Origin: Mesodorylaimus sp. YZB2_4
Lineage: Eukaryota > Nematoda > Enoplea > Dorylaimida > Dorylaimidae
DNA length: 64,000 nucleotides
Direction of reading: 5' to 3'
NCBI GenBank assembly: GCA_030248295.1
Contig: JASANH010001153.1
Span: 181,983 to 245,982 of the forward strand
Part shown: piece after piece, positions 9,908 through 63,975 of the stretch
How the letters are laid out: every line of letters starts with the position of its first letter
Numbering within the stretch: position 1 is the first letter of the stretch
Notes under the pieces: generated by a model
What the model was told of the DNA's origin: nothing
What the model saw: only the letters and a program-made list of their open reading frames with translations
Database searches by the model: none
Made by a program: the position numbers and the translations under genes

Positions 9908-11980
9908 ATGGAAGAAATCCCGATGCAAAAGATCTCCCAGGAATCCAATTCCTCAAATAAGAAGTCGCCAGTTGAGAATGGAGGTCCAAAAAATGCATCA
10001 CCAGCCAAAGAAGAATCGCTGGAACAGCGGGTACAAACCTTGGAAACAAAATTTGCGAAGGCGCAAAAAGTTTTGGGTCAATACGACGAAGCAGCAGTAA
10101 AAGCTCAACGGACTGGTGAGTAGATGCTGGATTCTAAAAGAACAAAGGAACCTCAAAAGCGTTTTTAGCGATTGAAAAATTAACAAAAACAGTAACAGCT
10201 GTTGCTGGAATGAGTGAAGCCATCGCTAGTAAGAACCGTGTTAAAAAGATCGTGTGGAGCGGGTTATTTATATTGGGACTAAGTGCCACCTTATACGTCC
10301 TTTACGGGAATATCCAAGAATATATTGACGATCCTACGGCAACAAAGGTATGAGAGAGAGTTTAATTACAGCTAGCCCGCGTAAGGTATGCGTTCAAACG
10401 TGCCTGATGTAGAAATCACCTTGGAAGAGGATAACTTGTCTTCCGAATTTGATCTCAGGACTCAAAACCAACAAAATAAAGCAGGGGGGTGGAGATCTCC
10501 CCGTCATTCCCTTCAATCTCTTCTAACCCCGACCCTTGAATTGAGTTTTAAAACCGCAAATCCGTGTTGAGTCGTGAAAAATTATTGGAACTTCTTATGA
10601 AATGGGTGGGACTTCTCAAACTTGCGCTCCTGCCATTAAAGGTTGATCAAAGCACGAATTTTGCGAAGAAACACAGCGAATAAGAGGTGGCTGACAAAAC
10701 AAGAAAGTCAGGAGTCTGAAGATCTCTGCTGAGGAACCTACAGTGGGTCATTGGAAGTGGCAGATACTTCAACGATTTTACTTTCGCACATTTTTTTCTG
10801 ATCAGTCATTTTGTTATAGATCAGTCTAAACATCTCTATCAACTACGACATACCGACAGTCGCCATCTGCCCCTACCAGTGGATGGACACTGAAAAAGCA
10901 TTGTCAATGGGACTAACCATAGACGCATTCAAATATTCCCTGGGATATCTCGATTCGTCATACGCGAGTGTTCCAATTACTAATCTTACAAAGGCAAAAG
11001 AAGAATTTCTAGTATTTTATGACTCAAAAAATTTCTCGTCATTACTCGACTATTACAGAAGTATTTCTCACGACATGCCAACTGTGTACTCGAATGAGGA
11101 GTTTGAGGAAAATCCCTCGGCGATAAAGTTAGGAGACCCAAACGCGTGGGTCAGAAAAATATTCATGAATTACGAAATGTGTTATGCTTACAGAACCAAC
11201 ACATCAGCCAGGAGTCTGTATACTAGAATGAGTGCAAGCATAAAATATGCTGATAAGACCATGAACGTGGCACCGGCCCAATCTGGATTATGGATCCAAG
11301 TGGTCACCGACTGGGACTTTCTGAATACTATTTATCCCCCAATTTATATTCCACCTTTCACGAAGAGCAAAATTCTGATCGACTCGGAGCGATTTATTAC
11401 ACTGAACAAGCCAAGAAAGCCATGCGCTACGAATGACAGAATAAACAACACGTATGCCTCATTTTCATGCGCTGTGACCTGCCAGAATGAACAATATAAA
11501 GATCACGTTAAATGCAAACTATTCCGATTTAGCAGAGTCAGCAGAGCCGTTGGACCTGACTCCTATTGCCACTACGCCGAAAAATTACCAGATCGTGACA
11601 TTGATCTTGGTGAATTTAAAGCAACTGATGAAAATGCGAATATCACTCAGCTCTGTCTCGATCGATGCCCTGAGCGGTGTGATCGAATCATATACCAGCC
11701 ATCTGTACAATGGCAATTACCACTCGACTCCACCACTGAAAAGATGACACTCGTCGAACTCTACTTTGAGCATTCTGCAAATTACAAAGGGGGCACGATA
11801 ATTCTGGAACAAATCGATACATATAGTGCGATGACATTGATCGGAAATATCGGAGGAACATTAAGTATGTTTATTGGAGCCACTTTGATCACCCTCGCGC
11901 AAGTTTTGTGGTTTTGTGGTGGTTGCATTTTTGATAGAATGTGCAAGTCGCCAAAATCTTGCGGGAAAGAAACAGGTTAG
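9908..11980 (+). CDS. DEG/ENaC-family sodium channel subunit, paralogue 2 (three exons)
   Basis: Second member of the tandem channel array. Exons are 9908-10115, 10169-10347 and 10820-11980 (515 residues); introns of 53 and 472 bp fall at the same positions and phases (1, then 0) as in the other two copies. The N-terminus has an S-P-V-E-N-G motif and a coiled-coil-like stretch. TM1 lies at about 97-115. The ectodomain opens with Y-D-I-P-T-V-A-I-C-P-Y-Q-W and carries the conserved Cys set including C-P-E-R-C. TM2 contains G-G-T-L-S-M-F-I-G-A-T. As in the other copies, the pre-TM1 His-Gly motif is replaced by Ala-Gly and the pore has G-A-T. It is closest to paralogue 3 by eye. An AATAAA lies 26 nt after the stop. 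Probably a homo- or heteromeric trimer subunit, as known for the family. Confidence 0.88.
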
Positions 11981-15951: not shown

Positions 15952-18942
15952 ATGGAAAACGCCTCGAAGGAAAGTAGTTCCCAGGAATCTAATGACTCGA
16001 AGAAGAAATCGCCAGTTGAGAATGGAGGCCCAGAAAATGGGTCAGCAGTCAAAGAAGAACCGCTGAAACAGAGGGTACAAAATTTGGAAACAAAATTTGC
16101 CAAGTCAGAAAAAGTTTTACGTCAATATGACGAAGCGGTCGTGAAGGCCCAGCGGACTGGTGAGCGGCAAGTTGTAGACACCTTCTGACAAAAGTGTAAG
16201 CCAAATTCGGAAACATCTTTTTTAGCAATTGAAAAATTGACAAAAACAGTAACAGCTGTCGCTGGAATGAGAGAAGCGGTTGCCAGTAAAAGCCGAATTA
16301 AGAAAGTTATATGGACAACTTTATTTTTGATGGGTTTGACCGCCACGGTATTTATCATTTACAAAACTATCCATGAATATTACGGCGAGCCTATGGCAAC
16401 AAAGGTGAGTGCAAAAGCTGTGTTTGCTCCAAAAGTTTGATCACATCACAAGATCACAAAAGTTTAAATTCATCACAGCGAAACTTTTTTGAATTAATCG
16501 ATTAAATGCATTTTCTGTGGACAAAATCTTGGAAAAAGTCGACTTGTACTGACCGCAGCTCTTCCTGCCGGTGACTTATAATATTAAAAGTCCACACTTG
16601 GTATCCTAAACTACTGTTTCAAAGAAGTCTGGCGAATTTACGGAAGCGTGGGTGGAGGTAGAAAATTCTCACTGATATCGTCTGTTCTCACCAATGTACT
16701 GTAATGGCATGAGTAGCATAAAAAATGGTTGGCGGTCTTCCAAGCTTGGCCTTCTCGCAGGGTAAAAATTTCAAGACGAAATAGCAGGGAGGAAGCCAGA
16801 AGCATCAGCCTAGCCTGGGTACTTTGTCGCGCAGAAAAGTTGCAGGCATTCCCTCTTTGCCGACCCGACCCCTACCCTTGTCTGTTTTTGTCCAAAATGT
16901 TGCAACCCCCCTCCTGGCTGTGGACGTCCTCTATACTGCGTGAGTAGTTATTATGTACATGCTTTAGCGAGCATGAACGTTGTTTTTGTCGAAATTGTCC
17001 GTAGCGTATCAATGCAAATTTCGGACTAAAAAATTATATCCCACCATTTAAAATTACCTCTAGAGTAAACAGTTGGGCTTAGGAACTTAACATTATCAAT
17101 TTGTGGCGCACTTTTTTACCAACTTCCGTGCTAATTTTATTCCATAAGATCGATTACACTGTTAAATCGCGAAAAATGTGAAAAAAATAATTTCCACCTA
17201 TTTTTTACCAATGCGACTGAAAATCGTAGCGGTTACAGTATTCTGCTATCCTGCGCTTAACTGGCAAAAGCGCGCGAAAAGCGTGCAATTCAATTTTTCC
17301 GAAAATTGGATTTTCGCACTTTTCAAAATAATGATACGGATCTGAGCAAAATGAAGTATGCCAACCTTATTTTACATGGGGACTGCATATCACAACATAC
17401 TCATCTTCTTCAAGGTTACCCCCTGCGCTAGTGTAGCTTTAAACAGTTACAGGACCAACAACCTTCACGTGCGCGCGAAGGAAACGTTTCTAAGGAGGTC
17501 GTAAAAATTAGGAACTGTACCCTTCTTTAGAATGGCCTGAGGCCTCAGTCTGCAGAATGAACTGGCATTCGGATGCTCGATGTCGCCATACACCCGAAGC
17601 AGTCACGAACTGCTAATTTTTCGAAGTCATCTGAAATCGTGCATGCTCACTATGCAGTGACTATTCTAACCCGCATTACAGAATGATCCTCGGAGCTGCA
17701 GTATTTGCGAAGATAGCACCACATTTCTGATAGTTTCCCTGATCACTAGTAAAGTTCAACGAAATGTATCTTGTTTTTCAGATCAGTTTGAACGTCTCAA
17801 TCAACTACGACATACCGACAATCGCCATCTGCCCCTACCAGTGGATGGACACTGAAAAAGCATTGTCAATGGGGCTAACTTTGAATGCATTCAAATATTC
17901 CTTGGGATATCTCGATTCGTCATATGCGAATGTTCCAATTACGAATCTTACTAAAGCAAAAGAAGAATTTCTAGCATTTTATGACTCAAAAAATTTCTCG
18001 TCATTACTCGACTATTACACAACAATTTCCCACGACATACCCACCGTGTACACAGAGTCCGACTTTGACAAGAATCCCTCAGCAATCAGATTGGACGATC
18101 CGAAAGCCTGGGTCAGAAAAATATTCATGAATTACGAAATGTGCTTTGCTTACAGAAGCAATATATCCGGCAGGAGCCTGTATACGAGAATGGGTGCAAG
18201 CATAAAATATGCTGATAAGACCATGAACGTGGCGAAGGCCCAATCTGGATTGTGGATTCAAGTGGTCACCGACTGGGATTTCCTGAATACTATTTATCCC
18301 CCAATTTATATTCCACCTTTCACAAAGAGCAAAATTCTAATCGACTCGCAACGGTTTATCACACTGAATAGCAAAGAAAGACCGTGCGTTTCAAATAAAA
18401 ATGTAACCAGCACTTATGCTTCGTTTTCATGCGCTGTGACCTGCCAGAATGAGCAATATAAATCTCTGATCAAGTGCAAGCTCTTCCGATATGGCCGAGT
18501 CAGTAGAGCTGTCGGCCCAGAGTCCTATTGCCACTACAGTGAAAGCTTACCATTCAGAAACATGGACCTCGACGAATTCAGAGCTACTGAAGAAAATGCG
18601 AATATCACCCAGCTTTGTCTCGATCGATGCCCCGAGCGGTGTGATCGAGTCATATACCAGCCATCTGTACAATGGAAATTACCACTCGACTCCAAGACAG
18701 AAAAGATGACGTCTGTTGAAATTTATTTCGAGCATTCAGCTAATTACAAAGGGGGCACAATAATTCTGGAACAAATTAGCACCTACAGCACAATCACATT
18801 GATCGCAAATATCGGTGGGACGTTAGGAATGTTTATTGGAGCTACGATGATGACTGTTGCCCAAGTGGTCTGGTTTTTTGGTGGGTGCGTTTTTGACAGA
18901 GTGCGAGTGGTGTCTGTTTCTTGTGGGGGAAAAGGAGGATGA
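15952..18942 (+). CDS. DEG/ENaC-family sodium channel subunit, paralogue 3 (three exons)
   Basis: Third member of the tandem array. Exons are 15952-16159, 16226-16404 and 17782-18942 (515 residues); introns of 66 and 1377 bp keep the phases seen in paralogues 1 and 2. The second intron holds one copy of a dispersed repeat (17,225-17,440). The protein has an N-terminal S-P-V-E-N-G motif and coiled-coil-like stretch, TM1 at about 97-115, a Y-D-I-P-T-I-A-I-C-P ectodomain start, the Cys-rich domain with C-P-E-R-C, and TM2 with G-A-T in the pore. Pre-TM1 Ala-Gly replaces His-Gly, and the Glu usually found after the pore is Gln (A-Q-V-V-W). Identical architecture in three copies indicates tandem duplication of a complete gene. 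Divergence is greatest in the middle of the ectodomain, where ligands usually act in this family. Confidence 0.88.
17225..17440 (+). repeat. Dispersed repeat, copy A (inverted relative to 27,846-27,966)
   Basis: Contains GGTTACAGTA...CTATC and GTATGCCAACCTTATTTTAC plus CTTCTTCAAGGTTACCC, all matched in reverse complement at 27,846-27,966. Copy A carries about 75 extra bases between the first block and the rest. No coding capacity; family unknown. Confidence 0.6.
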
Positions 18943-28704: not shown

Positions 28705-30084
28705 TCACAGCTTTGCCCAAAGGGTTTTAAGCCCAGCTCGATATTGCGGCTGCACGAGGCAAGTGACGAATGGATTTCCACTTGGATTTGACATGATCAA
28801 GACGTATGTGAGCAGCTGGGCGAATATCATCCATTCACTCCACCTTTCACGATCGTTGTAAAAAATCAGTGTAAACAATCTATATGGAATTGACGTAGAG
28901 AAAGACCAGACTGTTGTACTAAATACAAAAATCACCGTTTTCAGATCCTTCTTCGGTTTAGACGCTTTAAATCGGCGAAATGATGTATTTTCTTCAAAAC
29001 TTGTTGCTGGATCTAGGATTTCAGTACCTTTGCCAGAATCGCTTTTTGTTTGAATCGTTACAGGATTATCACGTCTAATGCATCGTTTCTTCACGATGTT
29101 GAGAAGATGACTTTTGCGACCCCTAGCGTTCCCAAATACTAGCCGATACTCCGCAGCAGCAGCCCTCCTGGCCACCACATACACGTAGATACTGATCAGC
29201 AAGGAAATGGAGATGGGCAGCATGAAGGCCAAAATGACCAACGAGAAATACGCGGAGAAGCTGTCCAACTCGAAAAACCCGCGCTGGCATTGGTCTCGCA
29301 AAGCATTGATTGGACCGAAGACGAAGAATGTTGCCCACGAAAAGGCCACTGTCCAACAGGCCGAAATGCAGATTTTGCCTCGCCTGCAGGTGACCAGTAC
29401 GAGGTAACGAAAGGGAAAACGTAGGCTGAGAAACTTGTCGATATTCAATAGCAATATGCTGATACTCGAGGCCACGGTCGATAAATTAACCACGTACAAA
29501 ACGAAAGTGCAGAGGATTTCGTGCGGGTAGAAGCCGATTGTGAATTCGAAGAATGTCGTCGTGCAATGGACTGACAAGAATATGAAATCAGCTATGGCCA
29601 TACTCAGAATGCATAAATGCTGGGTTTCACGCTTCGAGTTCTCGAGTAAGGTTTTGAGGGAAATGTAAATTATGAGGGCATTCATGAATACACCAACAAC
29701 GCCGATCATCAGGGCGTAGATGCCTGACGCAAAGACGAGGGTGTGATAGATTCGGATTAGAGAAGATTCATTGGAAAATAAGTTGGTTGAATTTTGAATT
29801 TCTCTGTCATCTTTTGTGGCTGGAAATGCTGGAATAAGGAATTCGAGATGACTGACGTTCATTGCCTCGCAGGTTAATTTGCAGGGTGGTGCTTTCTCGA
29901 GCTGCATAGGTCCAGCCACTATTGTTAGGCCTGAGCGGGTTGTCGGCATGAGAAATGTAATCTTCGGATGGATCGCCTGAAGGGAGGGCAGAGGAGAATT
30001 TCCGCCCGGCTGATCGTGAGTGATGCGTTTTGGGCAGAGGTAATTAGTGTCCCGAACAACATGACCGATCGATATGGTTGTCAT
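28705..30084 (-). CDS. Rhodopsin-class GPCR, inverted-duplicate copy A
   Basis: Class A seven-transmembrane receptor, 459 residues from the ATG at 30,084. A second in-frame ATG at 29,862 (residue 75) gives 385 residues and fits the length of its paralogue better. N-glycosylation sequons precede TM1. TM2 has the S-M-A-I-A-D pattern of class A receptors. Cys residues before TM3 and in the second extracellular loop would form the usual disulfide. The DRY motif is D-K-F (N-I-D-K-F-L-S-L-R-F-P). TM7 reads S-N-P-S-G-N-P-F with no final Tyr. The third cytoplasmic loop is long and basic. About 97% of residues up to TM5 match the receptor at 42,790-43,905, which lies in the opposite orientation. Amine- or peptide-type ligand cannot be decided. 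Confidence 0.82.
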   Translation of the reverse strand: MTTISIGHVVRDTNYLCPKRITHDQPGGNSPLPSLQAIHPKITFLMPTTRSGLTIVAGPMQLEKAPPCKLTCEAMNVSHLEFLIPAFPATKDDREIQNSTNLFSNESSLIRIYHTLVFASGIYALMIGVVGVFMNALIIYISLKTLLENSKRETQHLCILSMAIADFIFLSVHCTTTFFEFTIGFYPHEILCTFVLYVVNLSTVASSISILLLNIDKFLSLRFPFRYLVLVTCRRGKICISACWTVAFSWATFFVFGPINALRDQCQRGFFELDSFSAYFSLVILAFMLPISISLLISIYVYVVARRAAAAEYRLVFGNARGRKSHLLNIVKKRCIRRDNPVTIQTKSDSGKGTEILDPATSFEENTSFRRFKASKPKKDLKTVIFVFSTTVWSFSTSIPYRLFTLIFYNDRERWSEWMIFAQLLTYVLIMSNPSGNPFVTCLVQPQYRAGLKTLWAKL

Positions 30085-30885
30085 ATTCAGATAATCTTAT
30101 TTATATTCTCTTTTCCTTGACCTATCCTTCGAGCTTGATTTATGATAGATTCGAGCCCTGGGCCTACTTTGAATACTGTCGTCAACGAACGACTGCTCAA
30201 TAATTGCGATGTTACTGTGTGTTATCTGGTCTATTTGAGGATTAAGGACTGGTCGGGTGCAGTTGGCATCGATTGGCCAGCGCCATCGGCATGAGTAAGA
30301 TTCCTGCACGCATTTTGAAAATAATGGGCGACGATAGCGTAATGAATTCATCGTCTTCGATTAATTTAAAAAGCGCCCTAAAAGTTCTACGACGTGTTTT
30401 TCCCACACTTCATTGGCAGTGCTAATAGTGCAGCCAGAGCAGTCGTGGCATTTCTACTGCGACGTAAGCGTATGCTGGTAGCTTTCTAAAAAAAGATGTA
30501 CTTTCAAAAAGCCTCACAGGGATTTCAACCAAAATCAGCTGCGCATAAATGGTGCAATAAAACAGCTAAGAATAAAAGCTCTGCAACAAAATTGACCAAA
30601 ATTGGCGCCTGCGTGCGCTTTATTTCAATTCCCTGTGTTATATTGAAAAAGGCTGGCTGAATACAGTACTGGCTTGTGATAGCATTCCAATTATATGAGT
30701 CTCTCTGGTCTTTAGGAAAATAGACCGGATTCAATGCTCGTGTAAATCGGCCCTCGAATGACCTATTTTTCATGGATAATTTGAAATAACTACGCCTCTA
30801 GGGAGATTTTAGCTTCAGTTACCTTTTAGAGTGCGGAGTGCACTCTAGAATCGATGTCGTATTATTGAAAAAAGAATATTATATC
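30085..30885. other. Spacer upstream of GPCR copy A
   Basis: No gene seen. An 84-codon minus-strand frame at 30,097-30,351 has no recognisable domain. It does not join the receptor by an evident splice. Confidence 0.4.
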
Positions 30886-42536: not shown

Positions 42537-42747
42537 GAACATGACAACCCTTATCGATTGAGCATGTTGCTCAGCATGCAATGTTCCAGGCACTGCCTCT
42601 GCCCCAACGCATCACTCTTTCTTGTTAACATTCTTCTCACGGTCTTGGGAAAATATTCTCACGAAATTAACAGGCTGACTGACAGCGCAGATCTTCATTT
42701 CCTGGGGTTAACGCGGGAGAAAAGACCCTCTGGTAGAATTTAGCTCA
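42537..42747 (+). repeat. Direct duplication, copy 2, abutting the start of GPCR copy B
   Basis: Second copy of the duplication at 41,806-42,026. It ends only 42 nt before the receptor ATG, so it occupies the 5' leader and proximal promoter region. Equivalent sequence was not seen upstream of the inverted receptor copy. Confidence 0.6.
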
Positions 42748-42789
42748 CGAGATAACGAACATCAGTTATCTTCAGCTTCACTTTCTGCC

Positions 42790-43905
42790 ATGCTAAAAGA
42801 AATTCAAAATTCAACCAACATATTTTCCAATGAATCTTCTCTAATCCGAATCTATCACACCCTCGTCTTTGCGTCAGGCATCTACGCCCTGATGATCGGC
42901 GTTGTTGGTGTATTCATGAATGCCCTCATAATTTACATTTCCCTCAAAACCTTACTCGAGAACTCGAAGCGTGAAACCCAGCATTTATGCATTCTGAGTA
43001 TGGCCATAGCTGATTTCATATTCTTGTCAGTTCATTGCCCGACGACATTCTTCGAATTCACAATCGGCTCCTACCCGCACGAAATCCTCTGCACTTCCGT
43101 TTTATACGTGGCCAATTTATCGACCGTGGCCTCGAGTATCAGCATATTGCTATTGAATATCGACAAGTTTCTTAGCCTACGTTTTCCCTTTCGTTACCTC
43201 GCACTGGTCACCTGCAGGCGAGGCAAAATCTGCATTTCGGCCTGTTGGACAGTGGCCTTTTCGTGGGCAACATTCTTCGTCTTCGGTCCAATCAATGCTT
43301 TGCGCGATCAATGCCAGCGCGGGTTTTTCGAGTTGGACAGCTTCTCCGCGTATTTCTCGTTGGTCATTTTGGCCTTCATGCTGCCCATCTCCATTTCCTT
43401 GCTGATCAGTATCTACGTGTATGTGGTGGCCAGGAGGGCTGCTGCTGCGGAGTATCGGCTAGTATCAGATAATGACACCGATCGCAAAAGTCATCTTCTC
43501 AAGATCGTAAAGAAAAAGTATGTTCGACGTGATAATCCAGACTCTGGCATGCTGCAAGAATACTGTGATCCTGCTATTGGTAATGAACTTACAGAGGCGG
43601 CAAAAGATTCCAAAGAAAATTTATCAATGCGCCGATTCAAAGCTGGTAAACCAAAGTCTGATTTAAAAACGGCAATTTTTGTATTTAGTACGACAGCGTG
43701 GTCGTTCTCGACGTCAATTCCGTATCGATTATTTACCCTTATTTATTACAACGATCGTGAAAGGTGGAGTGAATGGATGATATTTGCTCAGCTGCTGACA
43801 TACGTCTTGATCATGTCCAATCCAAGTGGAAATCCGTTCGTCATTTGCCTCGTGCAGCCGCAATATCGAGCAGGGCTTAAAAATCTTTTGAAATCCAAGC
43901 TGTGA
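42790..43905 (+). CDS. Rhodopsin-class GPCR, inverted-duplicate copy B
   Basis: Single-exon class A receptor, 371 residues. From N-S-T-N to the end of TM5 (about 220 residues) I count only six differences from the receptor at 28,705-30,084. TM6 and TM7 are likewise nearly identical. The third cytoplasmic loop is strongly different: K-S-H-L-L and R-R-F-K-A flank an unrelated middle with Q-E-Y-C-D-P-A. It shares the D-K-F form of the DRY motif and the S-G-N-P-F end of TM7. The start was chosen at the ATG immediately before the homologous region; the longer N-terminus of copy A has no counterpart here. The two genes are in opposite orientation about 12.7 kb apart. Confidence 0.82.
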   Translation: MLKEIQNSTNIFSNESSLIRIYHTLVFASGIYALMIGVVGVFMNALIIYISLKTLLENSKRETQHLCILSMAIADFIFLSVHCPTTFFEFTIGSYPHEILCTSVLYVANLSTVASSISILLLNIDKFLSLRFPFRYLALVTCRRGKICISACWTVAFSWATFFVFGPINALRDQCQRGFFELDSFSAYFSLVILAFMLPISISLLISIYVYVVARRAAAAEYRLVSDNDTDRKSHLLKIVKKKYVRRDNPDSGMLQEYCDPAIGNELTEAAKDSKENLSMRRFKAGKPKSDLKTAIFVFSTTAWSFSTSIPYRLFTLIYYNDRERWSEWMIFAQLLTYVLIMSNPSGNPFVICLVQPQYRAGLKNLLKSKL

Positions 43906-54360: not shown

Positions 54361-54674
54361 CTTTAACCCTTTCTTTTTCTCCTACAACACGAGGACTCCG
54401 CATCCCCAACCCCCCCCCCACAACCCCCTGAAACAAAAACCAACACAAGACAAAAAAAATAAACCAAAGGGGCACACCCCCCAAAAGAAAGGGAAAAAAA
54501 AAAAAAAAAAACAACCCCCCCCCCAAAAACACCCCCCCCCCCCGGCCTTGGCCCGCGCCCACAACCCCTCCTCCCCCCCCCCGCGGCGTGCCCTGGCGAG
54601 GAAAAAAAAAAAGGGAAGGGAAAAAACCCGGGGGTTTGCGGGGGGGGGGGCCCCCCCCCCCCCCCCCCCCCCCA
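54361..54674. other. Homopolymer-blurred segment, probable sequence or assembly artefact
   Basis: Runs of C, A and G of 8 to over 20 bases follow one another with almost no ordinary sequence between, ending in a G-run then a C-run up to 54,673. This is unlike anything else in the window and resembles a low-quality read end or misjoin at the retrotransposon boundary. Pro/Lys- and Gly-rich open frames through it are by-products. The start of the 5' LTR probably lies in or before this stretch. Confidence 0.65.
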
Positions 54675-55102
54675 GAAGAGCTTAGTGCAACCCTGGTCCT
54701 GTGATGGGGGTTTCCTTCCCCGTTCGGTGCAGGCCGCCCGGCTGCACGTGCCCTTGCACAGGTGCTCTTCCATAGGCCTGACTGAGCAAAGAGAGTCCAG
54801 ATCAAACCGGATCTATCTGGTTATGTTCCTCGCCCGGATCGGTCCTTCTGACCGGCCCGCCTAGACTGCTCGTCAGTCATCATCTACTCGTCGATCGGTG
54901 CGGTTGGGACTATTTCCCCAGCTGCCCTTCCCCCATAAGTGCTCTTCACTTGGTTGGTTGTACCAGCGTAGAGGTGTCCGCCTGTCGGCCTAATAAAGAG
55001 GTATCTATATTAGTGTCCGTTTCAGTAGGGACCGCGCAGGGTAGATTCGAACCTTAGTACGCGTGTAGGTCTTCCATCCCTATACCTGGGGAGGATACTA
55101 CA
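54675..55102 (+). repeat. Probable 5' LTR (3' portion), left boundary unresolved
   Basis: Moderately GC-rich sequence directly before the primer-binding-site candidate. It ends ...ATACTACA, i.e. with CA, and contains AATAAA at 54,992-54,997, as expected for the R region. The left edge runs into the artefact segment, and no 3' LTR is available for comparison. Confidence 0.5.
54992..54997 (+). promoter_or_regulatory. Putative LTR polyadenylation signal AATAAA
   Basis: Exact hexamer 105 nt before the presumed LTR end. Confidence 0.45.
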
Positions 55103-55121: not shown

Positions 55122-55621
55122 GCGTCCGGTGTACGCCCGACTCTACAAACGTCGATCGACCGAGAGGAGAGTCGCTTGTCGACGTTATCATCTCTTCGAA
55201 GAAAGAAGAAAGAAGAAATTTTCAAGAAAAGAAGAATATTTATTATTTGTTTATTCTAGATCCACTTGATCTCTTCAGACAAGGTCTGCCCGTGGTTCGC
55301 CCAGTCTTGCAGTCGGTGTACTCGTCGCGGTACGGCTGATCACCTCCGTACGATTCCCGAAGCAGCTCGGCAACCAGATTCGCGTGGCGTTTGGGATCGC
55401 CCTGGTAAGTGCATCTGGTATCCCCAGACTCTACCAGGTAAATTGTCATTTTCTCGTTGCGTCTTTGGACTCGCCCTTATTTCGTGTCTCGGGCAAGTCC
55501 CCTATTCGGCATCGTGTGGTATTCTTCCCACAGTTTCTACACGCGGCTCGAATTTGTATTGATTATTTTCCTCGTGCCATTGTTTGTTTAACATCTAGGC
55601 TAGTAGCCCACGCTTGTGGGT

Positions 55622-58600
55622 ATGCGACGTGTGCACACATCTCGTCTTCAGCGACCAGATCAGAAAGTGCATTCGATCCGCCAATCGGTGCACGAAGTCG
55701 TCAACACAGTGGGCAGTGGTCATCAACAGCCCACCATTCAACCGTCGCATAGTGGTCTACAGCCTGCTGTAACTATGTCTACTAACGATCCTTTTTCGTC
55801 TTCAGGCCTCTTTCGCACCTCTGTGCGTACAACGGCCATCACTACGACACAGTCGTCATTTGGCAAGCTGTACACTCAAGCTGGCTCGTCTAGCAAAACG
55901 GTGTCTACAACAACAGCTACGACGCCTGTTTCTGTACCAGCTTCATCCGTCTCGAGCACTGGCTGCACGTCAGCTTCATCAGTGCCTACTGTAATTCTAA
56001 CATCGCCTCCGTTGCAAGGCCTCCTTGCTGAGCATTTCGCCGACCAACAGGCCGATGTGTCTACGCGTGATTCGCTCGCCTGGGACCATTCCGATTTGGG
56101 CGAGAATGCCATCAATCGTCCATTGGTAGCCTTTGGGTTGGGTAAGCATAATTTTTCTTCCTCTGCTCCTAACCCTTTGTCCCAGACGACCGATCAATTA
56201 GCCGAAGGGCATGTCCCGGCTATCGGCTCGCTAGACACAACTCAGGCTGCAATGCCTTCTCAAACATCTCCGTCGACAGTGGTATACCCAGCCACAACTA
56301 ATGCGATTGCGAGTAGCGAGTCTACTTTGAACCCTCCTGCACGCACCGCAGGAGCGACGGCCGGTGGTCAACATGGTACGAACAAACACCATACACATAA
56401 CGTCACGGCCTACGATATCATCCATTGCTCTGATATTCGCATTCTCGATCGCTGGGCTGGCATGGCTGGCTGGTTCAGCGTTTGGCCTCGAGATATTATT
56501 AAAGAAATGCAGCGCTACCCGTCGACGTATTTGCTTCTCTTGAAGCGAGAATTGGTCCTATATTGCATAGCTGACTATGTTTTTCGTTTTAAGAGTTTCC
56601 CAACAGGCCAAGTGCCTCAGAACGATCTGGAACTGCCAATGATCGGTTGGATGCAAGCGGCAGCATTCGAATTCTTCGAATTCACAAAGAAACAATTGCA
56701 CATCGAAGAATGTCGTAAGTACTTGCCAGATTCATTGTGTAACGATCATTTACCCTTCTTATGGGATCCTCTCGTCTATTGGTGGACTGCCTTTTGCAAC
56801 ATGCCACCCCCGACTGACACGTCGAAAGATCCGAAGACAGGTAACTCGTTTACTATAGTGCCTAACGAGAACCAAACTAATTTCTGCCGATTAAGACCCG
56901 CTGGTGGTCATAGGCATCCTGATAACGAATATCATGGGTTCAACACCGACCCTAATGTCGCCACATCCTTCTTTCCGGGTGAATCTGTAGTTCAGGCAAC
57001 TGTCAAGGGTATCCCGCCGTATCCGAGACACCCTCCAACGTCTGTTTCTACAGTAACCACTTCTTCTAGAAGGTCGCCTGTACCTACCGTCGTCAATATT
57101 CAACCTGGTTCGTCCAGTCATGTTACAGGTACCTCTCGCGACGACCCGGTTGGCGACGATAGACCACCCCGTGGTGGTAAGCCGAAACATCCCCCTGGTA
57201 ATGGCAAGCAACCAGGAGACGACGACAAGAAACACGGGAAGCGAGATGATGATTCTCGCAAGAAGAAACAACGACCGTCGCGTGATCCGCCTCGAAGGCA
57301 GCAGCGATCACGAAGAGACGATGTGTCGCCGTGCACTGTATCCACTAGCGATGCAGAATCCGATCATGATTCGAGTCCATCGTCATCGCCTCCCTCGTCG
57401 TCATCATCAACGACGACGGATTCATCTTCCGAGTCCTCCAGTTCGTCAGGATCGAAACATCGTCGATCGAGGAAATCGAAGAAAAAGACCAAACGTAAGT
57501 CTACTTCGAAACGTTTAGATACCCCACGATTACAACCTTTGGACTCGTTCAAAGGTGGTATGAATGGTGAGTTTCGCATTTGGCTTAGGCAATTTGAAAG
57601 TTGCATGCATTCTTTCAAAGACAAGGTGAAGTTGCGTTACTTCGCATCTTGTATGAAAGACGATGCTGCAATCACTTGGTCTCAGCTCTCCAAAGCTCAA
57701 ACCAAGTCTTTCAAATCTGCTGTTAAGGCAATGTCAGAAACTTATGACAGACCAGTCCATCCTGACACGCAAAGGCGGTTGATCCAAGCCTGCGTTCAGA
57801 CTGCTTCTGAGCCTGTCATGAAGTATCTACAACGTCTTCGTGAGTTAGCCCGTGGTCTTTATTCCAACGATTCGCAGCGAGAACAAGAAATTTCGTTCCA
57901 ATTCTCCGCTGGCTTAGTGGAACCACTCCGCTCAGAATTGGCGAAAGTCCTACTGTCGGAGAAAGGTCCGCCTGACCTTTCGCGGAAGATCCAACTCGCT
58001 TGTGATTACGAATCATATTTCGCTGTGAACAAGCCGTCTTCGTCGTCTGCAGTGACTATGGCTACAGTAAGTTCATCTGCTAAAGTACTGACAGCCTCTG
58101 CTTTTAACTCAGATAAGCCCGACGATTTTGTCGACGACGAATACGACGAAGATTACCACGACGACGAACCTGGCTCGTCCAACACGGTTCATCACACCTC
58201 ATTCCGTGGCCCATCTGGCTCGTATCGTGGACGATATTCACGCCCTGGCTCTCGTGGCCAACGAGGGTACCAACGATCCTATCGAGGTAACTCGCAATCA
58301 CGTTCTTATGGTGATCATCGTGGTCAATCATCCGAATTCCGATATCGAGACTCATCTCGAGATCGATATCGTGAATCGACGGATGATCGATATCGCGATC
58401 GCTATCGCAGTGATCAGCGATATGGGTATCGCCCTCGCGATTCATCATACGAACGGCAGTATGATCAGCGTGACCAGCATGGATATCGATCGCGTGATCA
58501 AACACCAGATCGATATCGCAATGACCGTCCGCGTGATCAATCTGCTGATCGCGACCCCCGTCGTGATCAATTATCCAGGCAACGACAAGCCTCGGGTAAT

Positions 58601-58852
58601 GAATTCAAGAACAAATGTCACAATTGCGGTGGCACTGGGCATTATGCTCGGAATTGCCCTAGTCCGTGTGTCTCCTGTGGACGCCCTGGTCATCTATCAT
58701 CCGAGTGCCCATCTCGTCGACGAAATGATAGTCTGACTCGCACTTCGAGTGCTCCTAATTTAAATCGTGGCCCCGATCGATTGCGTCGAACAAGTTCATC
58801 GGCGAATCTCTCTCCCAACCATCCAAAAAACGGGGAGAGGGCGATGCAGTAG
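55622..58852 (+). CDS. gag: Retrotransposon Gag polyprotein with two CCHC zinc knuckles
   Basis: Structural polyprotein of the Ty3/gypsy element, read from the first ATG at 55,622 (1076 residues); the ATG at 55,775 is an alternative start. In order: a Ser/Thr-rich N-terminal region; a globular part at about 56,400-56,820 rich in aromatic residues; a basic, Ser/Asp-rich linker (about 57,140-57,520); a retrotransposon-gag capsid-like domain (57,540-58,020) with W-L-R-Q-F-E and F-x-x-G-L; a long Arg/Tyr/Asp repeat region (58,200-58,560) built of R-Y-R-D-type units; and two knuckles, C-x2-C-x4-H-x4-C, at 58,616-58,708. It is about twice the length of many Gag proteins. The last codons contain the slippery heptamer that sends some ribosomes into pol. 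Confidence 0.9.
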   Translation: MRRVHTSRLQRPDQKVHSIRQSVHEVVNTVGSGHQQPTIQPSHSGLQPAVTMSTNDPFSSSGLFRTSVRTTAITTTQSSFGKLYTQAGSSSKTVSTTTATTPVSVPASSVSSTGCTSASSVPTVILTSPPLQGLLAEHFADQQADVSTRDSLAWDHSDLGENAINRPLVAFGLGKHNFSSSAPNPLSQTTDQLAEGHVPAIGSLDTTQAAMPSQTSPSTVVYPATTNAIASSESTLNPPARTAGATAGGQHGTNKHHTHNVTAYDIIHCSDIRILDRWAGMAGWFSVWPRDIIKEMQRYPSTYLLLLKRELVLYCIADYVFRFKSFPTGQVPQNDLELPMIGWMQAAAFEFFEFTKKQLHIEECRKYLPDSLCNDHLPFLWDPLVYWWTAFCNMPPPTDTSKDPKTGNSFTIVPNENQTNFCRLRPAGGHRHPDNEYHGFNTDPNVATSFFPGESVVQATVKGIPPYPRHPPTSVSTVTTSSRRSPVPTVVNIQPGSSSHVTGTSRDDPVGDDRPPRGGKPKHPPGNGKQPGDDDKKHGKRDDDSRKKKQRPSRDPPRRQQRSRRDDVSPCTVSTSDAESDHDSSPSSSPPSSSSSTTTDSSSESSSSSGSKHRRSRKSKKKTKRKSTSKRLDTPRLQPLDSFKGGMNGEFRIWLRQFESCMHSFKDKVKLRYFASCMKDDAAITWSQLSKAQTKSFKSAVKAMSETYDRPVHPDTQRRLIQACVQTASEPVMKYLQRLRELARGLYSNDSQREQEISFQFSAGLVEPLRSELAKVLLSEKGPPDLSRKIQLACDYESYFAVNKPSSSSAVTMATVSSSAKVLTASAFNSDKPDDFVDDEYDEDYHDDEPGSSNTVHHTSFRGPSGSYRGRYSRPGSRGQRGYQRSYRGNSQSRSYGDHRGQSSEFRYRDSSRDRYRESTDDRYRDRYRSDQRYGYRPRDSSYERQYDQRDQHGYRSRDQTPDRYRNDRPRDQSADRDPRRDQLSRQRQASGNEFKNKCHNCGGTGHYARNCPSPCVSCGRPGHLSSECPSRRRNDSLTRTSSAPNLNRGPDRLRRTSSSANLSPNHPKNGERAMQ

Positions 58853-58875
58853 GTACACCCATTGCTGCATCGCCT
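58825..58875 (+). promoter_or_regulatory. Programmed -1 ribosomal frameshift signal between gag and pol
   Basis: Heptamer A AAA AAC (58,825-58,831) is in the gag reading phase required for simultaneous slippage. A 9-nt spacer follows, then a perfect 9-bp stem GCGATGCAG (58,841-58,849) with CTGCATCGC (58,865-58,873). One further G-C and one G-U pair can extend it. The loop is 15 nt and contains the gag TAG stop (58,850-58,852). The pol frame is open from 58,759, so gag and pol overlap by 94 nt in the -1 relation. Confidence 0.85.
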
Positions 58876-61800
58876 GGTTCGACGACTGCAATCGCCGCAT
58901 CTGCTGCACCTCAAGGCTCGTCCTGTGATGAGGTCAAAAATGATCAAGCTCCGTCAACGTCGATTCCTCATTTGTCTTTTTCTTTTAATACTCAGGAACG
59001 ACATAATGTTTGTTTTCATAACGGCCAAGCAGCGTACATCCCAACGGGAGTACAGCTGCCTTCTATTACTACGCGTATTAATCACGTCGATTTGATTACG
59101 CTAATTGATAGCTGTTCGTCAGTATCACTTATTAGCGAACCGACTCTTCGTAGTGTCTTAGGCTCGTCCTACTCAAGAGACCTACTACAACCAGGTGGTA
59201 TTTCAGACTGCATCGATGGTGATGGTCAGATAATGCCCCTCTTGGGATTTATCAGCCTCGATGTGGTTATTGGTGGTAAAGTTGCTTTTAATACCCCACT
59301 ATTCGTTTCAGAGAAAGGCCAATACCAAGTCCTTCTCGGTGAAGATTTCAATCGTGAACGTCATCGATTTCAGTATCTCACCGATATTGGTGTTATTCGA
59401 TACACAGCCGGTGACCTGGCTGGTGTCGAGGTTCCGTTCAGAAAAGACAGCATTGTCTTAGGACGAAACAATATGGCAATGCTCACGTACGACATCAAAT
59501 TAGAGGCGCATGCTCATGCTGTAGTGCCTGTTCGTCTACCTCCAGCGTACAGGGATGTTGATCTCGTGATCGAACCCGTACACGTCGATTCTCGGGTAAT
59601 GATCCCGCGCTGTACTGTCAACGCACGATCAAAGAATTGTGTCAAGATCACAATGATCAACCTCGCTGGTTATTCCCAAATACTACCGAAGTACACGTAT
59701 GTTGGTTTACTATCTCAACCAGATCCATTCCGAGTGGTCCGACTCGATACTTATCGCAACCTGGCTCTGCGCGTCAGAGAAAGCCCTCGCAAAGTTTGGG
59801 TTGTTCCCGATCTCGTCCAGTACGATGACATCGGTGAGTACAGCTTCGTTGTCAACATAGGTCCTAAGGAAAGGCCCATGCCTAAGTTCCTTCAGCCTCA
59901 GCTACTTATTGACCCAGAGGTGGAACTCGTCAACCCCACCTTCACGACTGTTCGTGATTTAGAGGACTATAACTCTGAGACATGGCCGAAAGATGTTCAT
60001 ATCGACCCTAATGATCCTGATAGGCAACAGACGCTCTTGCGTAGACTCAATGTTGGCCATGATCAACTTTCAGAAGCCGATCGTGAGAAACTTCGAAAAG
60101 TGGTAGCCTCAAACTGTGATGTTTTTGCGCTAAACAAATATGAGATTGCAGGTACGCATTTAGCGAAGCACAAAATCGACACAGGCGATGCCAAGCCCAT
60201 TATGGCTCGACCTCGTCGCCTGATCGAAAGCCAAAAATCGATCGTGAAAGAAGAAATTGGCAAATTGCTTCGCCTTGGTTGGATTCGACCATCGCGCTCT
60301 TCTTGGGCATCTCCGATCGTTATGGTCAAGAAGAAGAATGGCGATTGGAGAATGTGCATCGATTTCCGAGCTGTTAATGCTGTGACACGGAAAGATGCGC
60401 ATACGCTCCCGAACATTCACGAAATGTTGGATACATTGCGAGGTAGTACCATCTTTTCTGTTTTCGATATGACTTCGGGTTACAGCCAGATCCCCTTGGA
60501 TCCGTCAACGGCTGAGAAAACAGCATTCATCACCCCCTTTGGGTTCTGGGAATATGCAAATATGCCGTTTGGCCTCTGCAATGCCCCTGCTGAATTTCAA
60601 CGATGCATGGAACTGGCTTTGAGTGGTCTTCTTTGGCAATACGTCATGTGTTATCTTGATGATATTATTATTTTTAGCAGATCGGTTGATGAACACGAGT
60701 CCCACTTGGCAGCCGTGTTCGATCGACTTCGATATGCTAACCTGAAATTGGAACCTTCGAAGTGTTCGATTGGAATGGACAAGGTCGAGTACCTTGGACA
60801 TTGCATATCGAAAGACGGTTATCGTCCAACAGACGATAAAATCGATAAGGTTCGCAATTTTCCGGTTCCCCGTAACCAAGACGAACTACATAAGTTCATA
60901 GGTCTTGCTAGTTACTATCGATCGTTTATCGAGGGATTTTCTCAACGATCTCGTTCCCTGAGGCATCTCCTCAGAAAGGGTACCAAATTCGAATGGACAG
61001 ACGCTTGTCAGTCAGAATTCGAAGACCTCCGTCAGCGGCTGGTTTCTCCACCAGTCCTGCGATTCGTCGATTTCTCTTTACCTTTCCGGTTGAGCACAGA
61101 CGCTAGCAACACGGCTATTGGCGCAGTGCTGGAACAATACGACCCAGCCCGTCCAACGAAACCGTGGCCGGTGGGCTATGCGTCTCGTACGCTCAACTCA
61201 GCCGAACAGAAGTATTCGACGATCGATCGAGAATGCCTCGCCATTTATTGGGGCATTCTCCATTATCGATATTATCTCTATGGTCGCCCGTTTGAGGTAT
61301 ATACCGACCATAAACCGCTCCTACAATGGTATAAGGAGAAAGATCTCGAAGGTAGGAGGGGTAGGTGGTTACTCAAACTACAGGATTATCTGTTTAGCAT
61401 CACTCACGCTCGTGGATGCGATAATGGTGCTGCTGATGCCTTGTCGAGATTACCAACAGCTGATATTGTACTATTTGCAGCATTGCATCCATATCAACGG
61501 TGTAATCGATGTAGTGCCTCCGTTTTGGCCGCATTGATTCCTCATGGTTTCACTTCGACGCCTGCGCCTGTCGCAACAGAGGAAGTCCAGACCTATCAGG
61601 ACGCCATCGACATGATAGATGCGCTTCCTGCACCAGAATTCCATTCCACGTCTGAGAGTGAGTCTGTTCATGATTCCTGCTCTGATCCCCGTAGTGGATA
61701 TGAATCAGAGAGCGACGATCGTATCGATTGCCCGCCCGAACTCCTGCATAGGAGTCTTCGGTGCTGGCGATACGTCAAAATTCCAAATGCTTCTTGCGTG

Positions 61801-63975
61801 AATGAGGTGCTCCCTTCACCTCTTACTGCTGCGTTTTCTATGAATATGGTAGCTTTGACCAATAAGCTTGAATTACCAGCTATTCCAGAGTACGACAGTG
61901 ATTATGATAGTGCCGTCGATTTGGCAGTGAGTTCGGCGAGCCCGTCTCAGCCTTCTCACCTGCCAACAGCTCGTGTACATGTCACGGATCGAGTTGATCC
62001 TAATGATGCGACTTTAGAATTGTCTGTTCAACCTGATCATAATCTATCTTTAGATTCTGACTCTGATCAGGATGATCTCGAATTGATTGATGAATTAGAC
62101 CCTGATTGTCAGGTGGAAACACAACTCGATATTCCTTCATTGGCATCCGACGTGTTTCCCGACGCGCCTTCGCGTAAGTTACTTTATAAGATGCAACGTG
62201 ACGAAGAATATTTGTTTCAGATTATTCGTCACCTAGAAGGCTATGATTTGCTTCCTGCAAAGTCAGCACGAATAGCGAAAGACTATTTATTGGACAAGGA
62301 TGGAATCCTCCTGCATAGGTGGTCTCATCGTGGTCGTCTCGTCGAAGGAGCCGACATCCACGACAGAATTGTCGTCCCTGCGGTTCTGCATAAATTCATC
62401 TTTGATTCTGCCCACAGGGACGCCAATCATCCCGGTTTCGACCGATTATTCGCAGCTTTGCGATGTAAGTTCTTTTGGTCTTCTATGCGTAGAGATTTGC
62501 GCCGATGGTGCTCTGAGTGCGGCACTTGCGCACGATTCAAGCAGCCACATCGATATGAACGGCCGCCGATGCAAACAGTGCCCAGAACAGCCCCGTTCGA
62601 CACTGTTGCGATCGATGTGCAGGGACCTTTCCCTGTCTCCAATAAAGGCAACCGTTTCGTAGTGGTCATTATGTGTATCTTCACAAAATGGGCCGAAGCT
62701 TATGCTGTTCCCGATCAAACGGCCCCTCGCATTGCTCGTCTATTGGTCGATGGATGGATTGCCCATCATGGATTCCCGAGAGTCCTACTCAGTGATCGTG
62801 GCTCAAATTTTCTTTCCCGACTCGTCCTACGCCTTTGCAACGAGTTTGCTATCAAAAAGGCATCGACGACTCCGTACCATCCTCAGTGTAATGGTAACGT
62901 AGAAAATTTGAATAAGCTTATTGGCTTTTCTATGGCATGCTATGTGCACCCTGATCAGAAGGATTGGGACAACCGACTCCAACTGATCATGATGCACTAT
63001 AGACATACCCCTCACTCGACAACTAAGGTATCCCCATACCTTATGTGTCACGGACGTGAGCCTCCTACGTCCTTGGATGTCCTGCTGGCTCGACCCGCCA
63101 CCCAGCACATCCCGACGACTGATTATGTCGATCATTTGCGTGTTCGCATGGCAAGCATTGAAGCTAAGGTTCGAGAGAATCTTGCAATTGCCCATCTTCA
63201 TCAAAAGATGCAATTTGACAAGACAGCTAGGCCTCTTTCTTTGGAAGTTGGTGATTGGGTTAGGAAGCCTAATTACCACTACAAGGAAGGCCTATCTCGC
63301 AAACTTAGTCTTCATTGGCTTGGTCCATACGAAGTTGTTATGATCCTAGGTGACACAGGTGTTATTATCCGTAGTGTCCTGGATCCGACCAAACCATTGG
63401 AACGTTGGCATCCACAACTTTTGGTCAAGACCAACGAATCCATCGAAGGTATCAGTGCACCCACGCCCGTTGTGGTCGACCCTGCACTGGCCGAAGAATC
63501 CGAAACTATTCAAATCGACACTCCTGCTGTGGTTTCCCGTGAACCTGATCAGCGTATGGAAACGATTGATTCTGGCACTCCTGCTGTGAGTATGCCCCCT
63601 GTCCTCACAGACAAGCCCGGTGGTGCGTCTCAAGGTGAGAAACCAGGTGAATTTCGACGTGGTCAAATTGTGTGGGTCAAGGTCACAGGGTATCCGTGGT
63701 GGCCTGGCCTCATCGTCGAATTCCCTGATGGTTATCCTATCGATTTTGAAAACAAGGAGAAAATCATGCGCACTTATGAGAGTTTGTTCCGCATGTCGGA
63801 CATTTCTCAAATTTATCGTGTACTCTTGTACAATGATAACATGAACGAAGTTTATGTCCACATTAATGCGCTCAAAGACTTCAAGGATCACTTGTCCTAT
63901 TTTGAAGCGAAGTTGAAACAGAAAACGTATCTAAAAAGGGTAGAAAATCCAAATTTCACGAAGCAGTGCGTTTAG
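58831..63975 (+). CDS. pol: Retrotransposon Pol polyprotein: PR-RT-RNaseH-IN-PWWP
   Basis: Made as a Gag-Pol fusion by -1 frameshifting; the frame has no ATG near its start. Aspartic protease with D-S-C-S (Asp at 59,107), where D-S/T-G is usual, and a later L-L-G-E-D. Reverse transcriptase with V-F-D-M-T-S-G-Y (Asp at 60,466) and Y-L-D-D (60,652-60,663). RNase H with T-D-A-S (Asp at 61,099). A Ser/Asp/Glu-rich linker of roughly 220 residues (about 61,550-62,190). Integrase with an HHCC zinc region (62,413-62,535), catalytic Asp at 62,614, Asp at 62,794 and Glu at 62,902 (DD35E). GPY/F module (G-P-Y at 63,322). A Pro/Glu-rich spacer, then a PWWP domain starting near 63,655, with Y-P-W-W-P at 63,691-63,705. 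The frame is uninterrupted. The end at 63,975 may be premature for the PWWP fold. Confidence 0.93.
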   Translation, partial: RGEGDAVGTPIAASPGSTTAIAASAAPQGSSCDEVKNDQAPSTSIPHLSFSFNTQERHNVCFHNGQAAYIPTGVQLPSITTRINHVDLITLIDSCSSVSLISEPTLRSVLGSSYSRDLLQPGGISDCIDGDGQIMPLLGFISLDVVIGGKVAFNTPLFVSEKGQYQVLLGEDFNRERHRFQYLTDIGVIRYTAGDLAGVEVPFRKDSIVLGRNNMAMLTYDIKLEAHAHAVVPVRLPPAYRDVDLVIEPVHVDSRVMIPRCTVNARSKNCVKITMINLAGYSQILPKYTYVGLLSQPDPFRVVRLDTYRNLALRVRESPRKVWVVPDLVQYDDIGEYSFVVNIGPKERPMPKFLQPQLLIDPEVELVNPTFTTVRDLEDYNSETWPKDVHIDPNDPDRQQTLLRRLNVGHDQLSEADREKLRKVVASNCDVFALNKYEIAGTHLAKHKIDTGDAKPIMARPRRLIESQKSIVKEEIGKLLRLGWIRPSRSSWASPIVMVKKKNGDWRMCIDFRAVNAVTRKDAHTLPNIHEMLDTLRGSTIFSVFDMTSGYSQIPLDPSTAEKTAFITPFGFWEYANMPFGLCNAPAEFQRCMELALSGLLWQYVMCYLDDIIIFSRSVDEHESHLAAVFDRLRYANLKLEPSKCSIGMDKVEYLGHCISKDGYRPTDDKIDKVRNFPVPRNQDELHKFIGLASYYRSFIEGFSQRSRSLRHLLRKGTKFEWTDACQSEFEDLRQRLVSPPVLRFVDFSLPFRLSTDASNTAIGAVLEQYDPARPTKPWPVGYASRTLNSAEQKYSTIDRECLAIYWGILHYRYYLYGRPFEVYTDHKPLLQWYKEKDLEGRRGRWLLKLQDYLFSITHARGCDNGAADALSRLPTADIVLFAALHPYQRCNRCSASVLAALIPHGFTSTPAPVATEEVQTYQDAIDMIDALPAPEFHSTSESESVHDSCSDPRSGYESESDDRIDCPPELLHRSLRCWRYVKIPNASCVNEVLPSPLTAAFSMNMVALTNKLELPAIPEYDSDYDSAVDLAVSSASPSQPSHLPTARVHVTDRVDPNDATLELSVQPDHNLSLDSDSDQDDLELIDELDPDCQVETQLDIPSLASDVFPDAPSRKLLYKMQRDEEYLFQIIRHLEGYDLLPAKSARIAKDYLLDKDGILLHRWSHRGRLVEGADIHDRIVVPAVLHKFIFDSAHRDANHPGFDRLFAALRCKFFWSSMRRDLRRWCSECGTCARFKQPHRYERPPMQTVPRTAPFDTVAIDVQGPFPVSNKGNRFVVVIMCIFTKWAEAYAVPDQTAPRIARLLVDGWIAHHGFPRVLLSDRGSNFLSRLVLRLCNEFAIKKASTTPYHPQCNGNVENLNKLIGFSMACYVHPDQKDWDNRLQLIMMHYRHTPHSTTKVSPYLMCHGREPPTSLDVLLARPATQHIPTTDYVDHLRVRMASIEAKVRENLAIAHLHQKMQFDKTARPLSLEVGDWVRKPNYHYKEGLSRKLSLHWLGPYEVVMILGDTGVIIRSVLDPTKPLERWHPQLLVKTNESIEGISAPTPVVVDPALAEESETIQIDTPAVVSREPDQRMETIDSGTPAVSMPPVLTDKPGGASQGEKPGEFRRGQIVWVKVTGYPWWPGLIVEFPDGYPIDFENKEKIMRTYESLFRMSDISQIYRVLLYNDNMNEVYVHINALKDFKDHLSYFEAKLKQKTYLKRVENPNFTKQCV
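63951..63957 (+). promoter_or_regulatory. Possible second slippery heptamer at the PWWP C-terminus
   Basis: A AAT TTC lies in the correct pol phase for a -1 slip. After such a slip the frame stays open to the window end and encodes F-H-E-A-V-R-L-A-K-L-A-A, which resembles the closing helix of PWWP domains. The unslipped frame stops at 63,975. A one-base deletion is an equally good or better explanation. Confidence 0.3.

Follow-up and report, generated by a model that had tools for sequence, protein, structure and literature searches.

The window, the 64,000-nucleotide stretch of DNA analyzed here, ends within an animal LTR retrotransposon of the Ty3/gypsy group, the integrase of which is closed by a PWWP domain, and related families of the same genome share this fusion, making up a diverse group of such elements. 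The domain lies at the end of an uninterrupted pol frame (58759–63975, + strand, 1738 aa from stop to stop), and translation of this frame bears out the order of motifs reported in the preliminary description, with GQIVWVKVTGYPWWP followed by YRVLLY and then by FKDHLSYFEA in a single open frame. The profile search proposed there as a check places PF00855 above its curated cut-off in the window pol (Pfam hmmscan; E 1.1e-9, 39.1 versus 25.6 bits); the match spans pol residues 1635–1723 (window approximately 63661–63927) and profile positions 1–76 of 93, with the last 17 positions of the profile unmatched. When the window PWWP was compared with PDB chains by phmmer, NSD2, MSH6, DNMT3B, NSD3, and PSIP1/LEDGF were recovered (best E 2.1e-6), with similarity highest over the first 25–46 residues. 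An AlphaFold model made from the single sequence was poor (pLDDT 50) and was kept out of the evidence, and a fold search with that model gave no match at E ≤ 0.001; the fold is therefore assigned from sequence profiles. All eight family representatives given carry Pfam matches to PWWP (E ≤ 0.01) and to rve, and Chromo is absent from the Pfam families listed for these eight, which in that respect lack the C-terminal chromodomain of a chromovirus.

The pol frame shows the Ty3/gypsy order of reverse transcriptase, RNase H, and integrase, all on the + strand. A weak protease match (Pfam E 0.21) accompanies the reverse transcriptase (60325–60801; PF00078, E 8.1e-34, residues 523–681), RNase H (61069–61389; PF17917, E 9.1e-34, residues 771–877), the H2C2 zinc-binding region of integrase (62374–62544; PF17921, E 2e-13, residues 1206–1262), and the integrase catalytic core (62587–62883; PF00665, E 4.8e-9, residues 1277–1375). 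The C-terminal region of the integrase contains the sequence LGPYEVV in a module with approximate limits of 63199–63438, which we take to be the GPY/F module. The PWWP domain follows, and both the Pfam matches and the domain order thus uphold the earlier placement of a PWWP after the GPY/F module in the integrase of a Ty3/gypsy element, at the site where chromoviruses have their chromodomain.

Upstream of pol, a gag frame on the same strand (55607–58852, stop to stop) matches Retrotrans_gag (E 1.7e-8) and the zinc knuckles of zf-CCHC (E 3.4e-10) in Pfam, and pol lies in the −1 frame relative to it. Inside the gag–pol overlap is a candidate −1 slippery site, AAAAAAC (58825–58831, +), which the gag frame divides as A AAA AAC; the heptamer alone occurs 33 times in the window on both strands, and the weight lies on its phase and its position in the overlap. 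Seven nucleotides past the site is a hairpin (58839–58875, +) with a 13-bp centroid stem and a folding z of −2.49 (200 shuffles, 2 as good), and the stretch of slippery site and hairpin is also present in the copies on contigs C402 and C77, with one loop base differing. Given an in-phase site in the overlap and a hairpin 7 bases on, translation of pol probably depends on −1 frameshifting. A partial 5′ LTR of uncertain limits (54684–55070, +) agrees at 375 of 387 bases with the region of the 3′ LTR in L023, the copy on C77. The sequence just before this match (54380–54680) consists of homopolymers and low-complexity stretches and resembles sequencing or assembly noise. Elsewhere in the window are three similar consecutive frames (1582–2787, 10820–11980, and 17743–18942), the first two of the amiloride-sensitive sodium channel family, and a pair of near-alike rhodopsin-type GPCR frames on opposite strands (28705–30096, −, and 42712–43905, +). 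The sodium-channel and GPCR frames, along with a COX1-like frame elsewhere in the genome that reads through TGA, mark the source as an animal.

The window terminates at the end of contig C166, 73 bases beyond the last base of the PWWP match, so that the window copy has its 3′ LTR out of view. Frames of 1776 aa on C402 and C77 extend farther past the PWWP, and the window copy diverges from them over roughly the last 70 bases of its contig. The 469-aa stretch of the window from integrase to PWWP is matched on four contigs (C342, C77, C552, and C402) at 98–99% identity over 457–458 residues with no stop, and at 15 more loci at 59–61% over 456–458 residues (10 of the 15 free of stops), along with many shorter or broken copies. 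Twenty loci (L011–L030) were picked from Pfam PWWP hits, mainly for long frames, and every one of them has a frame holding both an integrase match and a PWWP match; the PWWP matches were scored with a local profile that includes the window and nine of the 20 and is therefore not independent, but the loci themselves had been chosen by Pfam. In seven (L011, L012, L013, L014, L015, L021, and L029), paired LTRs of 96.9–100% identity enclose the PWWP frame, and 4-bp target duplications were recognized by eye in the flanks of L013, L015, L021, and L029. With LTRs this similar and target duplications in place, some copies must be young.

The fusion also recurs across this genome. PF00855 has at least 146 hits (150 of 173 candidates scored), and, among the matches listed, 88 of the 146 overlap an integrase match or follow one within 1.6 kb, so that 88 of 230 integrase loci carry a PWWP. 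Those integrase matches were pooled from several searches, leaving out matches that cover only the C-terminal end; with such matches kept, the looser count, again among the matches listed, is 94 of 146 PWWP hits and 94 of 236 integrase loci. For integrase core hits in frames of at least 900 aa, a PWWP is found in 20 of 60, a count with L030 as a known miss. The remaining PWWP hits include host genes and broken elements. That a host PWWP gene was joined, by artefact or chance, to a single retroelement copy at a contig end is suggested by the nearness of the contig end to the match, but this reading has next to no probability and is refuted by the other copies of the fusion, namely those at 98–99% identity on four other contigs, the PWWP within the seven LTR-bounded relatives, and the 88 PWWP hits that overlap or closely follow an integrase match; the domain belongs to the element, as the preliminary description had held, and not to an assembly join. 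Separately, the long contig C73 has COX1 matches (C73:251445–254668) in which TGA codons are numerous, and fragments lie on other contigs; these are either mitochondrial inserts or a mitochondrial join.

The PWWP of the window family is under purifying selection. Among the window copy, C402, C77, and C342, 13 of 92 PWWP codons vary, every one of them synonymously. For independent, neutral codons the probability of this outcome is about 1e-9, and 4e-8 when transitions receive a weight of 4 to 1. The 75 codons that precede the PWWP in the same four copies show 9 synonymous and 5 replacement changes (Fisher p 0.04). Synonymous divergence of C402, C77, and C342 from the window copy is higher in the PWWP (0.12–0.25) than in the integrase core (0.02–0.05), and it is possible that patchy recombination lies behind the difference. 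In the family of C236, C42, C514, and C682, constraint on the PWWP is weaker, with 2–3 replacement versus 2–7 synonymous changes in the five of six pairs listed; C336 differs from C40 and C385 by 2 and 2 replacement and by 12 and 13 synonymous changes in this domain. Between families, the domain has been retained yet evolves faster than the integrase: when the window copy is compared with seven sister-family copies, identity is 37–39% in the PWWP and 24–27% in the spacer versus 77–79% in the integrase core and 70–75% in the GPY/F module. Given the gap between PWWP and integrase identity, what the domain binds may not be conserved.

The residues at the positions of the aromatic cage bear on what might be bound. 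In PSIP1 the cage is described as M15, Y18, W21, and F44, with specificity lost in M15A and Y18A and no binding, perhaps through misfolding, in W21A and F44A (PMC3663649); the PSIP1 chain in our alignment is numbered one higher than these positions. The preliminary description had suggested that the element may integrate preferentially into H3K36-methylated gene bodies and had named the cage as a point to inspect. The window family aligns V, Y, W, and L with the four residues; V and L in place of M15 and F44 depart from an H3K36me-type cage and make H3K36me reading by the window family doubtful. The families closest to it, represented by L019 and L025, have V, F, W, and F at these positions; L012 has M, V, W, and F, and L014 has L, I, W, and F. 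The cage tryptophan is absent from the aligned sequences of L021 and L029. Judged from these residues, H3K36me reading is likely in some families only.

A writer of the mark may be encoded in the same genome. SETD2 carries an SRI domain, and two SRI pieces, both above the Pfam cut-off and one with an internal stop as across an exon edge, are present on contig C4; they may belong to an H3K36me3 methyltransferase. In the flanks of the seven LTR-bounded elements, three of ten picked frames match host families in Pfam, namely ubiquitin, GPCR, and, below its cut-off, glutamate receptor, a figure that comes with no control set.

We infer that chromatin tethering through the integrase PWWP is the likeliest mechanism, and hold it to be somewhat more probable than all else together. 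The PWWP would bind nucleosomes, through histone tail and DNA, and once bound would tether the intasome to chromatin of a selected type. A single protein would then combine insertion with the role that LEDGF/p75 plays for HIV-1 integrase and that chromoviruses assign to their chromodomains, and with a reader fused to the inserting enzyme, the elements may pick their landing sites without a host go-between. In families with a full aromatic cage, the target would most likely be transcribed, H3K36-methylated chromatin; the window family might recognize another mark or bind mainly through contacts with DNA and the nucleosome.

A rather unlikely alternative, if one to be taken seriously, is that the PWWP is a general DNA- or nucleosome-binding module that steadies the intasome on target DNA with no choice of histone mark. 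Replacement of the cage methionine and phenylalanine by V and L in the window family fits such a role, as do the faster divergence of the PWWP relative to the integrase core between families and the basic surface by which the PSIP1 PWWP is reported also to contact nucleosomal DNA (PMC3663649). However, L019 and L025 place F, W, and F at the positions of Y18, W21, and F44, which suggests that a methyl-lysine pocket has been kept in these families and tells against a purely general role. More tentatively than for tethering as such, and with the odds against it, we can imagine an old animal Ty3/gypsy clade with a built-in, LEDGF-like tether to H3K36-methylated transcribed chromatin, in which families later altered the pocket for different chromatin states. 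If true, these elements would be a natural series of retargeted integrases.

Trees built on reverse transcriptase, RNase H, and integrase make it likely that the PWWP was captured once. In a careful 48-row tree, 11 PWWP rows and L033 form a clade with support of 100/98, and L021 adjoins it at 89/90. A 40-row tree, which leaves out near-copies and L033 (a frame that runs off its contig), joins eight PWWP pols at 100/97 and all nine, with L021, at 65/56 and in 62% of 200 bootstrap trees. Separate gypsy lineages could instead have acquired the domain more than once, an origin that would fit either mechanism and that we consider improbable, though by no means negligible: a quick tree sets L021 outside the main PWWP clade, and the grouping of nine in the absence of L033 is the weak one, but the careful tree puts L021 beside the clade and the eight rows without L021 hold together firmly. 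L033 and L035 leave their contigs before the place where a PWWP would be expected, and Pfam found no PWWP in L031, L032, L034, and L036.

L033 (L033:3–4499, on C78) and L035 (L035:3–4094, on C316) are of a gypsy family in which a dUTPase (PF00692, E 4.7e-40 and 2.8e-41) separates RNase H from the integrase. At least eight contigs (C78, C111, C128, C174, C192, C372, C538, and C847) have an integrase core hit 707–718 bases from the contig start; our guess, from C78 as the one contig read, is that the seven others hold the same dUTPase family.

No counterpart of the fusion was met in the collections searched. In 120 database relatives of the integrase–PWWP stretch of the window (7991 candidates scored), precomputed Pfam annotation gives PF00855 in none, the chromodomain PF00385 in nine, and the DNA methyltransferase PF00145 in two, and the local PWWP profile gives no convincing match among them (best E 0.098). 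Two database gypsy pols with a DNA methyltransferase carry a further domain: P0087 has a chromodomain, and P0107 has a PHD finger. A search of 5.8 billion sequences with the GPY/F–PWWP end of L016 gave 566 candidates, of which none reached E ≤ 0.001, although for distant PWWPs such a negative is weak, and an IMG/VR scan gave 46 pattern matches, none of them a relative. The open PMC literature, among the matches listed, yielded no PWWP-bearing retroelement, its scope taking in few subscription papers and preprints.

Among known systems, chromoviruses likewise are Ty3/gypsy elements in which a reader of the Royal family follows the integrase in pol, whereas their reader is a C-terminal chromodomain and here it is a PWWP. 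The 70 Chromo hits of this genome fall in open frames no longer than 859 aa, and a long chromodomain-bearing pol frame was not seen among them. An arthropod retrotransposon family has reportedly, by the title of a 2019 article in Genome Res, captured a methyl-CpG-binding domain; it would resemble the present elements as a retrotransposon with a captured reader, there of a DNA mark, and would differ in both domain and mark. Gypsy-10_Ec32 of the alga Ectocarpus has a C-terminal Tudor domain that is, to its authors' knowledge, the first reported in a transposable element, in a study that also describes chromodomains on integrases beyond the chromoviruses and speaks of readers as having been acquired independently several times (PMC12477816). 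Gypsy-10_Ec32 too has a non-chromodomain Royal-family reader captured at the end of Pol, but a Tudor domain in an alga rather than a PWWP in an animal, and the word PWWP does not occur in the main text of that paper, which makes known both chromodomain and Tudor readers fused to an integrase (PMC12477816).

A functional parallel is LEDGF/p75 (PSIP1), the host PWWP protein through which HIV-1 is described as getting to active genes (PMC8149907). In both systems a PWWP is linked to an integrase and to a chromatin target, but LEDGF/p75, as portrayed in these sources, is a separate host protein that binds the integrase, whereas here the PWWP is within the polyprotein of the element (PMC8149907, PMC3663649). 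A natural set of integrase–reader fusions would make it possible to ask directly how a reader domain changes where elements land, and also how a host copes with elements that target its genes. If the integrases of this clade do carry their own PWWP, they would represent an independent solution to the problem, faced by HIV-1, of reaching active genes.
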